From NCBI GenBank assembly GCA_900498245.1, contig LS998015.1, positions 1,944,303-1,959,810 on the forward strand: DNA of 15,508 nucleotides, given 5' to 3'. Source of the DNA: Candidatus Zixiibacteriota bacterium (lineage in GTDB: Bacteria; Zixibacteria; MSB-5A5; GN15; PGXB01). The translations under genes were made by a program, and so were the position numbers. Below the pieces are notes generated by a model. It did not search any database. It was not told where the DNA came from and saw only the letters and a program-made list of their open reading frames with translations. This document shows positions 7,636 to 10,876 of the stretch, piece after piece; the first letter of the stretch is position 1; the number at the start of each line of letters is the position of its first letter.

Positions 7636-8376
7636 ATGAAAAGATTGACATCGCTGTTATTGCTTTTGGCGGCCGTTTTGGGAGCCTTCGCCGTGGCCTC
7701 GGCGGAGCCGAAATTGACCATTCCCGAGACGGTCTTCGATTTCGGATTCGCCCCGCAGAACGCCAAGATCAGTCACATTTTCTGGCTGCATTCCACCGGC
7801 ACGGATTCACTGAAAATTATCAAAGTGAGTCCCGGCTGAGGATGCACTCAGGCTCCATTGGCTAAAACGGAGCTTGCTGTCGGCGACAGCACCGCACTCG
7901 AAATCATATTCAACACCGGGCACTATAGCAAGCGTCAAACCAAGCGTCCGGCGATAACGACCAACGAGGGCCCGGAGACAAAATACGTGCAGATCGTCTG
8001 CGACGTCTATACCAACCCGGACTCGACTTACCCTATCTCGATCATGCCGTACAAATTCGATATCTCCCAGTACGGCGAGAAAGAAAGATCTTCTCTGGAA
8101 TTCAGCGTGAAGAATCTCTCGGATCAGGATCTGGAAATGACGCTGGTCGATATGCCCGCCGGGATGTTTAAGATCACTCTGCCCAAGAAAATCAAGGCCG
8201 GGCAGAGCGCCAAGGGGAAAATAGAATTAATGAAGGCTCAAATCGGGAAGGAATTCGAAAAATCGGTGACCTTCCAGGTCAATGACAAACTTAATTCTCG
8301 TTTCACCGTACCTGTCAAGAGAACCATTCGAATCCCCGGCGCCACTCCTGCGGACACGACCACGGCCAAGAAATAG
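7636..8376 (+). CDS. predicted secreted selenoprotein of the DUF1573 family (in-frame UGA at codon 68)
   Basis: Read through one TGA, this is a 246-residue protein colinear with the 244-residue paralogue at 8574-9308. The signal peptide (LLLLLAAVLGAFAV core, cleavage likely after ASA) indicates export. Framing motifs shared with the paralogue are VFDFGFAPQNA, SHIFWLHSTG, VGDSTALEIIF, TTNEG, LEMTLVD and GMFKI. The TGA (7837-7839) falls exactly on the first Cys of the C-x-C motif, giving Sec68-Gly-Cys70 where the paralogue has Cys68-Gly-Cys70. Both sides of the TGA are intact, with no frameshift and no other stop. A SECIS-like hairpin follows within 37 nt. The AAGGAA ribosome binding site is well placed before ATG 7636. 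An automated caller would give a 67-residue fragment plus a 172-residue fragment from TTG 7858. The alternative is a pseudogene or a base error. I favour selenocysteine; the redox role is inference. Confidence 0.8.
7837..7839 (+). other. in-frame TGA, predicted selenocysteine codon (Sec68)
   Basis: The codon sits between Pro-Gly and Gly-Cys-Thr. The neighbouring paralogue has TGC at the same residue number (8775-8777), so a single third-base difference separates Sec from Cys. Sec replacing a conserved Cys in a C-x-C pair is the normal pattern for selenoproteins with Cys homologues. Confidence 0.75.
7849..7876 (+). promoter_or_regulatory. SECIS-like RNA hairpin downstream of the in-frame UGA
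   Basis: An 8-bp stem pairs 7849-7856 (CAGGCTCC) with 7869-7876 (GGAGCTTG); one pair is G-U. Above it comes an A-C mismatch and two A-U pairs (7858-7859 with 7866-7867). The 6-nt loop GGCTAA spans 7860-7865. The loop starts 20 nt after the UGA; in E. coli fdhF the spacing is about 18 nt and the loop also starts GG. This fits the bacterial SECIS rules: coding-region hairpin, short spacing and G in the first loop positions. The Cys paralogue has mismatches at two pairs that are closed here. Confidence 0.7.
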
Positions 8377-8573: not shown

Positions 8574-9308
8574 ATGAGAGTGCGATCTTCAATTATCAAA
8601 TTTACCGTATTTTTTCTTGTTTGCGGCGTTTCGGCATCGGCGTCGCCCCGATTGGTTATCCCGGACTCGACCTTCAATTTCGGATTTGTACCTCGGAATG
8701 CCCGTGTCAGTCATATTTTCTGGCTTCATTCCCTGGGCGTCGATACTCTCAAAATCCTTAAGGTCGATCCCGGTTGCGGGTGCACCCGGGCGCCGCTGGG
8801 GAAATCGGAACTTGCCCCGGGAGACAGCACCGCCCTGGAAATCATTTTCTCCACCGGGTATTACAGCGGCTGGCTGACCAAGCACCCCGGCCTTTTGACC
8901 AACGAAGGAAGCGATGTCCGGCTTCTTGATTTCGCCGCCAATATTGTGGTCAAACCGGACTCCACCTCTCCCGTGATTTTTGAGCCCTATAAATTTGAGT
9001 TGCCGCCATTTGAAAATAAGACAAGGCCCTCCCTTAATTTTGCGGTGAGAAATGTCTCCGGTCAACCGCTGGAAATGACTCTGGTTGACTTTCCGCCCGG
9101 CATGTTTAAGATCAATTACCCCAAAAAAATCAAACCGGGCGAAAGCGCCGCCGGCAAAATCGAAATCACGAAAAACTTTGATGGGAAAGATTTTGCCAAA
9201 TCGATAACATTCCAGATGAATGATAAGGAAAAGACCCGTTTTACCATACCGGTGACTGGAGCCATCAGGGTCGCGGTCCCCGATTCGGCCGGTTCCTCCT
9301 CAAAATAA
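8574..9308 (+). CDS. secreted DUF1573 protein with Cys-Gly-Cys motif (Cys counterpart of the Sec protein)
   Basis: This is a 244-residue exported protein with signal peptide core FTVFFLVCGV and likely cleavage after ASA. The DUF1573 motifs are STFNFGFVPRNA, SHIFWLHSLG, Cys68-Gly-Cys70 in VDPGCGCTRAPL, and APGDSTALEIIF. The second half holds LTNEG, LEMTLVDFPPGMFKI and PKKIKPGESAAGKIEI. It aligns end to end with the middle paralogue with almost no gaps and many identical blocks, so the two are tandem duplicates. This copy uses two TGC codons at the motif and lacks two of the base pairs of the SECIS-like hairpin. A GGAGG ribosome binding site lies 6 nt before the ATG. It has its own promoter and is preceded by a terminator. 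The biochemical function is unknown; a disulfide or redox role is inferred from the C-x-C. Confidence 0.88.
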   Translation: MRVRSSIIKFTVFFLVCGVSASASPRLVIPDSTFNFGFVPRNARVSHIFWLHSLGVDTLKILKVDPGCGCTRAPLGKSELAPGDSTALEIIFSTGYYSGWLTKHPGLLTNEGSDVRLLDFAANIVVKPDSTSPVIFEPYKFELPPFENKTRPSLNFAVRNVSGQPLEMTLVDFPPGMFKINYPKKIKPGESAAGKIEITKNFDGKDFAKSITFQMNDKEKTRFTIPVTGAIRVAVPDSAGSSSK

Positions 9309-9385: not shown

Positions 9386-10876
9386 CTAATAAATTTCCAA
9401 ATTATGATCCTTAATATATGTATCCCATTCTTTGTTATAAATTTCTCCGGTCGCTGTCGAGTGCACCAGCCGGAAGTCGCCGAACCCGCTGACATCTTCG
9501 AAAATAAATAATATCCCGCTCTGAATATTGCGGTAGTACCACCGCTCCCAGGGCCGTCCCATGATCGGCGCGATTCGGGTCTTGGTATTGGTATTTTCGA
9601 TTATCGGACCCAGTTCTTTCTCCGGCACAATCTCCTCGTCGCGCTGATCCCAGAACCCGTATTGCATCAGCACCCGGCCGCGGTCACTGCGCCAGCCGCT
9701 TTTGACTTCGGGGTCGTTGGAAAAATGCTCGAGGGCATAGTCGTAGCGCGCAAAGGCCTGATTCAGATATTCGTTCTCGCCGGTTCCCGGAGTCGGGTCG
9801 TGATCCCTGAAAAACTGCCCGGCATACCGGATTTTCCCCGAATCGTTCAGGCTATTGAATACCGCCAGTTCGGAGGGTGATAACAGGTAATGCACCAAGT
9901 TGCTGATAGTCGTGATGCTCGCCGTGTCCAGAGGACTTTTCATCCTGTATACGACGGCCGGCGGCTGGTATCCGGTTTTCGGAACGACAATGAATCGGCG
10001 GGTGGCGGTGACCGTCTCTCCGGATTCCACATCGGTCGCGGTCAAGGCAATATCATACCGCCCCGGATTGCCCCGAAATGGGAGCACATTAGTCAGGACT
10101 GCCGACGGACCCGGCTTATCCATGGCGATATCCCCGAAGTCATGGCGGTAGCCGTTGCTATCATTTAATGCGGGCACCCCCGCCTGAGTTATCAGGTAAT
10201 TGATTTTAAACTGGTCCTTCCGGGCGCTGTCATAGGCGAGCCCGTACAGTTCGGCGTAAGTATAGAGCAGGGTGTCTTCTTCGGAAAATATCCCCATGGG
10301 ATTGGGAATGACCTCGCGGTCGTTTTTCACCAGACGCGGATTTCCTTTGTATGATTCGTCCACGACCCGAATCTGAATCGCCAATTCCAGACTGCTCAAA
10401 GAAAGACGGTCCTTAACAACCGCCGGCACCTCAATTCGATCATACAGCATCGCCCCGTTCCTCTTGCTGGTGACATCGATGACATTGAGTTTGCCCTTAT
10501 AAATGCCGGGTTCAAGGTCGAGAAGCAGTTTATTGAACAGCCGTATTTTACTCATTCTGGCCGAAACGGTATCGGGCGCCATGGTATAGAAGTAAGTGCT
10601 GGACGAATCGACCGGCTTTCCCAGCGTATCGGTAACGATAATTTCGGCATAAATAGCCGCTCTCACTCCCGAAACCTGGCTGTCGATCGGCATAAACGCG
10701 AAATCGTTGCGGTTTACCGCAAAGGGAAATTCCACCAGAACCTTGGGACTGTCCGCCGGATTGGGAAAGAACGAAATTCCGGCCTGCACGCTGATTTTTG
10801 ATCCGGCCTCCTGCGCGGGCGCCAATGACGCCAGAATCCAGATAAGGCCGCCAAAAATAAAAAATATCTTCTTCAT
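9386..10876 (-). CDS. secreted GWxTD-domain protein A (variant motif GWRSD)
   Basis: This 496-residue exported protein has signal peptide core IFFIFGGLIWILASL with likely cleavage near PAQ at residue 22. The first 300 residues look like beta-sandwich material. The C-terminal GWxTD domain (TIGR03514-like) contains FFRDHDPTPGTGENEY (356-371), then the name motif as Gly394-Trp-Arg-Ser-Asp398 followed by RGRVLMQYG. It ends with WERWYYRN and FIFEDVSGFGDFRLVHS. GWxTD proteins have no assigned activity; they are envelope proteins common in Bacteroidetes-related and candidate phyla. Here Thr of the motif is Ser. The gene follows protein B by 30 bp and is the last gene of the five-gene minus-strand unit, before the terminator at 9313-9356. 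The start ATG has only a weak ribosome binding site. Confidence 0.85.
   Translation of the reverse strand: MKKIFFIFGGLIWILASLAPAQEAGSKISVQAGISFFPNPADSPKVLVEFPFAVNRNDFAFMPIDSQVSGVRAAIYAEIIVTDTLGKPVDSSSTYFYTMAPDTVSARMSKIRLFNKLLLDLEPGIYKGKLNVIDVTSKRNGAMLYDRIEVPAVVKDRLSLSSLELAIQIRVVDESYKGNPRLVKNDREVIPNPMGIFSEEDTLLYTYAELYGLAYDSARKDQFKINYLITQAGVPALNDSNGYRHDFGDIAMDKPGPSAVLTNVLPFRGNPGRYDIALTATDVESGETVTATRRFIVVPKTGYQPPAVVYRMKSPLDTASITTISNLVHYLLSPSELAVFNSLNDSGKIRYAGQFFRDHDPTPGTGENEYLNQAFARYDYALEHFSNDPEVKSGWRSDRGRVLMQYGFWDQRDEEIVPEKELGPIIENTNTKTRIAPIMGRPWERWYYRNIQSGILFIFEDVSGFGDFRLVHSTATGEIYNKEWDTYIKDHNLEIY

Follow-up and report, generated by a model that had tools for sequence, protein, structure and literature searches.

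The gene at positions 7636−8376 of the window (the whole 15,508-nucleotide stretch of a Candidatus Zixiibacteriota genome analyzed here) almost certainly encodes a genuine selenoprotein, exported and belonging to the DUF1573/OS_HP2 family. Its reading frame runs from the ATG at 7636 to the TAG at 8374−8376 (247 codons including the stop). The sole internal stop is the TGA at 7837−7839, codon 68, with the frame open on both sides and the translation ...KVSPG-U-GCTQAPL... across it; from the sequence, selenocysteine (Sec) is predicted to be inserted at UGA68. Standard-code gene calling cuts the gene into two fragments, as seen in the program-made list of open reading frames. An earlier, sequence-only reading had reported a single in-frame TGA at codon 68 with an intact frame on either side and a tandem paralogue with TGC at the same residue number. 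We confirmed both from the sequence, the TGC being codon 68 of the gene at 8574−9308. The window contains the following features.

6808−7509, plus strand: upstream DUF1573 paralogue with a C-D-C motif; a conserved neighbor, with an upstream copy in relatives too.
7636−8376, plus strand: DUF1573 selenoprotein gene, 246 amino acids, predicted UGA-Sec at codon 68; PF07610, E = 1.3e-23.
7636−7704, plus strand: N-terminal signal peptide, approximately residues 1−23, from the sequence and the AlphaFold2 model (helix 2−21).
7837−7839, plus strand: UGA codon predicted to be read as Sec, the first residue of the U-G-C motif; TGA in the same column in 102/132 phylum genomes, TGC or TGT in Cys copies.
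7852−7873, plus strand: intermediate helix, GCTCC (7852−7856) with GGAGC (7869−7873), from covariation and z-scores against synonymous recodings.
7876−7890, plus strand: probable SECIS core hairpin GCTGTC-GGC-GACAGC, its loop 42 nt after the UGA, at a fixed position and near-invariant across the phylum.
8400−8423, plus strand: terminator-like hairpin CCCGG-TTCGG-CCGGG with a T run, 3′ of the Sec gene, read directly in the sequence and absent from the list returned by the pattern scan.
8574−9308, plus strand: tandem Cys paralogue with a C-G-C motif and without the hairpin; TGC at its own codon 68, ...DPG-C-GCTRAPL....
9386−15458, minus strand: convergent operon encoding a pair of GWxTD-type proteins, a pair of MacB/FtsX permeases, and one ABC ATPase, assigned with Pfam apart from the protein at 9386−10876.

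The host genome (Zixibacteria; a single contig of 3.51 Mb, 98.9% complete) carries the machinery for Sec insertion. selB (325 bits, above the cut-off) adjoins selA (487 bits), a single tRNA-Sec (anticodon TCA) scores 71.9 bits, and selD (375−384 bits) is itself Sec-coding, with an in-frame TGA; this selD is locus L134 (G000:C1:438747−439673). All four genes that the sequence-only reading had proposed looking for (selA, selB, selC for tRNA-Sec, and selD) are thus present. A search for Fdh-alpha gave only matches below the cut-off and without a TGA, and so no second SECIS comparison is available at that gene. Among the first 91 genomes with a TGA gene, 18 lack a tRNA-Sec match, and most of these are draft metagenome-assembled genomes. 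The Sec gene and selB are present but tRNA-Sec was not found in G023 (a single contig, 84% complete) and G083 (96% complete). The missing matches are likely attributable to draft incompleteness.

The product exceeds the PF07610 gathering score (83.2 bits vs 26.1). Its signal peptide is predicted to be cleaved between ASA and EP, and the secreted protein would consist of two PapD/HYDIN-like Ig domains, with U-G-C in a loop of the first. The AlphaFold2 model (mean pLDDT 94) comprises the signal helix and two Ig-like domains, the first resembling Porphyromonas gingivalis 2qsv, VesB/VesC, and HYDIN domains and the second resembling PapD-type chaperone domains. In the best structural match, 2qsv, the N-terminal Ig domain has a like fold (Z 13.8, rmsd 2.6 over 104 residues), although identity to the Sec protein is low (16%) and likeness of fold shows no function.

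The genomic neighborhood is conserved. Each of the 12 relatives compared has GWxTD genes tail to tail with its DUF1573 cassette. In 11 of them, the GWxTD genes are followed by a pair of FtsX/MacB permeases and an ABC ATPase. Another DUF1573 copy usually lies upstream of the cassette in relatives. Within the window, the minus-strand gene at 9386−10876 encodes a 496-amino acid protein that cross-hits its GWxTD neighbor and has no Pfam match. The operon (9386−15458 in the window and loci L180−L191 in the relatives) has the order GWxTD-GWxTD-FtsX-FtsX-ABC and is convergent to the cassette across the phylum. Such synteny with a GWxTD/MacB operon may reflect a shared function.

From the fold, export, motif, and neighbors, we tentatively propose, at slightly less than even confidence, that envelope proteins are its substrates in thiol/selenol redox chemistry through selenenylsulfide exchange, possibly the proteins that the adjacent GWxTD/MacB-type system handles. 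The selenoprotein could instead be a structural or PapD-like assembly chaperone in which U-G-C is a noncatalytic metal-binding or structural selenenylsulfide site, a possibility we take seriously but consider doubtful. In favor of such a protein, the fold is matched best by Ig domains of the PapD-like, HYDIN-like, and VesB-like kinds, and the family searches matched no thioredoxin-like domain. Phylum-wide retention of Sec, however, would argue for reactivity.

Decoding of UGA68 would involve SelB and Sec-tRNA, aided by an in-frame downstream SECIS with a GCUGUC-GGY-GACAGC core. The hairpin with this consensus starts 36 nt after the UGA; numbered from the T of the TGA (position 0), GCTGTCGGYGACAGC occupies bases +39 to +53 and forms a perfect hairpin of 6 bp whose loop has 3 nt. 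In Sec copies it is nearly without variation, wobble bases included. Among the first 71 sequences no covariation was found in the core hairpin, which is too invariant, but in family f12 the hairpin reads GCTATCGGYGATAGC, and all six copies there carry a compensatory swap from G-C to A-U. Four copies (in G106, G107, G123, and G097) have a C-A mismatch beside the loop. Older Cys copies have no hairpin and usually encode Pro (CCN) or other residues at the hairpin site, where Sec copies encode Val (or Ile or Ala), and the RNA element therefore constrains the protein.

We compared the hairpin region with recodings that keep the protein sequence. The native region was more stable in 79/79 Sec copies (mean z of −3.2), but not clearly so in Cys copies (−0.5) or in an upstream control (−0.2). 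Single-sequence folding gave z-scores of −0.7 to −2.1, and the synonymous-codon controls were the decisive ones. The RNAalifold consensus shows the GGY hairpin, with the upstream part paired differently. In searches against Rfam, the window matched no known RNA family, and the SECIS region gave no convincing match. The hairpin pattern occurs in 93 genomes, compared to one match for the reversed-pattern control, and an RNA model matches 107/132 genomes. Of 40 extra regions with the pattern, 14 do not belong to DUF1573 and resemble chance matches or AVGDS-coding peptides. The hairpin is missing from two TGA copies, L104 (G087:C7) and L220 (G117:C146), which either use another SECIS or are decaying genes. 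Overall, the sequence comparisons indicate that GCUGUC-GGY-GACAGC is the probable SECIS core.

The published bacterial SECIS (bSECIS) model places a G within the first two loop bases and a spacing of 16−37 nt between the UGA and the loop (PMC13188914). The GGY hairpin resembles this consensus in its 3-nt apical loop starting with GG, its 6−7-bp stem, and its location in the coding region after the UGA. It differs in that the loop lies 42 nt from the UGA, rather than 16−37 nt, and that an extra covarying helix lies between them. The energy limit of the model (≤ −7.5 kcal/mol) is reached by 60/79 copies; a hairpin with a seventh pair, like that of the window, has −8.4 kcal/mol and a bare 6-bp hairpin −6.8 kcal/mol. 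In the intermediate helix, one pair varies among U-A, A-U, G-U, and G-C, giving 26 compensatory cells (0/500 shuffles scored as high), and the remaining four are either retained or broken; the helix pairs in 82% of cells. Against synonymous recodings, its z-score is approximately −3.0 in Sec copies and −0.4 in Cys copies.

A possible explanation for the long spacing would involve the intermediate helix folding away 22 nt, which would probably bring the loop in effect to approximately 20 nt from the UGA. With the 22-nt helix folded out, the remaining 20 nt equals the spacing in selD, where a GUU-loop hairpin, GGCCAAA-GUU-UUUGGCC, lies 20 nt after the UGA (read by eye from the sequence). This match with the selD spacing is suggestive support for a looped-out geometry. 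We consider the chances about even that the copies in most of the phylum use a distinct bacterial SECIS class, in which approximately 22 nt is folded out in a two-hairpin arrangement and a GGY hairpin 42 nt downstream acts on the UGA and forces the protein sequence. Alternatively, SelB might read the intermediate helix at a normal spacing, with the invariant hairpin serving in pausing or mRNA stability. Covariation in the intermediate helix speaks for this arrangement, as do the position of the core hairpin outside the 16−37-nt range and the presence, in 12/79 copies, of a hairpin in the intermediate region that conforms to the published model at approximately 20 nt. We nevertheless regard it as unlikely, since only those 12/79 copies fit the model, whereas the GGY hairpin is nearly invariant, has a loop that obeys the G-[G/U] rule, and covaries in family f12.

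Conservation across the phylum bears on the reading of the TGA itself. A protein search found homologues in 130/132 phylum genomes, and, with copies found through the hairpin pattern and an RNA model included, a TGA occupies the exact motif codon in 102 of the 132 (91 genomes plus 11 more). Stops in relatives align exactly with the motif codon and are always TGA, never TAA or TAG, and their presence in so many genomes is therefore not due to chance. Complete copies have approximately 165−200 open codons 3′ of the TGA. Beyond the TGA, the frame evolves under purifying selection, with dN/dS of 0.10−0.28 for pairs with unsaturated dS and 89 synonymous against 14 nonsynonymous differences between the host genome (G000) and its nearest relative, G089, of the same genus. 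For this pair, nonsynonymous divergence after the motif is 0.034 in the Sec copy and 0.26 in the Cys copy, and the Sec copy is thus the slower evolving of the two. A search of genome contigs gave three relatives only, and a 92%-identical copy lies in a candidate division Zixibacteria contig. P66, G67, U68, G69, C70, P74, and V82-G83-D84-S85 are among the residues that do not vary across 57 Sec members, and the invariance of the last four partly reflects the RNA hairpin. Since the motif can be U-H-C in family f12, strict conservation is limited to U and the second Cys; L205 and L207 (in G101 and G102) have P-U-H-C in place of PG-U-G-C.

Together, the conservation of the TGA and the purifying selection exclude a pseudogene, an assembly error, and a general stop reassignment. 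That the TGA is read in another way, as a stop reassigned to Trp or Gly or through plain read-through with a standard amino acid, is very improbable. A frame that is open when TGA encodes any residue would by itself fit these options equally well, but the residue that alternates with it is Cys, selA, selB, tRNA-Sec, and selD are all present, and a dedicated hairpin accompanies the TGA. Within the same set, TGA also serves as an ordinary stop, ending 18 of the Sec genes and 15 of the Cys genes. A nonsense mutation or assembly error producing a pseudogene in one tandem copy, which an in-frame TGA beside an intact Cys paralogue might suggest, has a negligible probability given the recurrence of the TGA at the same codon, the intact and selected frame beyond it, and the slower evolution of the Sec copy in the G000/G089 pair. 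The sequence-only reading had argued that a nonsense mutation at exactly this codon would be a coincidence, and the phylum-wide recurrence bears this out. The comparison it suggested, of TGA or Cys at the aligned column in homologues, finds both in relatives. Its proposal of an exported selenoprotein in which UGC replaces CGC is almost certainly right, in agreement with the Sec machinery and the TGA/Cys column.

The sequence-only reading had also held that Sec replaced Cys. For the tandem paralogue, the tree and fossil hairpins indicate that this direction is probably reversed. A tree from which the motif and SECIS columns were left out requires 18 Sec/Cys changes, and well-supported branches make 11 of these unavoidable. 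Several Cys copies cluster in it with a Sec copy from their own genome or genus (G000/G089, G082, G087, G068, and G056). This tree is quick and midpoint-rooted with many weak branches, and the direction of change therefore rests mainly on the fossil hairpins. An intact hairpin is kept in the Cys (TGC) copies L050 (G028), L029 (G087), and L160 (G091), which are apparently recent Sec-to-Cys conversions. Cys homologues with remnant SECIS-like structures have been described in other families (PMC1794560). The tree and fossil hairpins suggest that many Cys copies in the clade derive from Sec copies. Tandem Cys copies would thus mostly be duplicates of Sec genes in which the UGA changed to a Cys codon and the SECIS was lost afterwards, and the paralogue at 8574−9308 probably arose as such a later duplicate.

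These results add a large, near-fixed set of exported selenoproteins for a candidate phylum, and they illustrate clearly how an RNA signal can dictate the residues of a protein. The duplicated genes form a natural series of successive Sec-to-Cys stages with a decaying SECIS, and the conserved neighborhood is a concrete lead on the function of DUF1573 proteins. Our literature search, with most subscription journals outside its coverage, found no paper on selenoproteins in Zixibacteria.

The suggestion that the selenoprotein family was undescribed proved wrong. The Sec-containing DUF1573 family has been listed since at least 2008 as OS_HP2 (pfam07610, UxC; PMC2398784), and "DUF1573 domain-containing protein, UGC" appears in review tables (PMC9312934, PMC13188914). 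Since DUF1573 with Sec in UGC is already in print, the gene in the window adds a new, divergent member to an established family. The NCBIfam model NF041425 (OS_HP2_seleno) matches 57/57 Sec members tested. Records of DUF1573 selenoproteins from other phyla include MDJ0815992.1 and CAB1076174.1. The protein in the window scores 77 bits (E = 1e-21), below the curated cut-off of 100 bits that NCBI uses for the OS_HP2 subfamily name, and we therefore file it as a DUF1573 selenoprotein rather than as a member of the NCBI subfamily proper. What is new here is that the gene is nearly fixed in a phylum, that its probable SECIS is long-spaced with two hairpins, and that synteny with GWxTD/MacB genes is conserved. 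The gene shares with the DUF1573/OS_HP2 family the same domain and the same U-G-C motif with Sec first, but differs in being a divergent member that is near-fixed in a whole phylum. In this phylum's copies, which the hairpin comparison covered, the probable SECIS is near-invariant and long-spaced.
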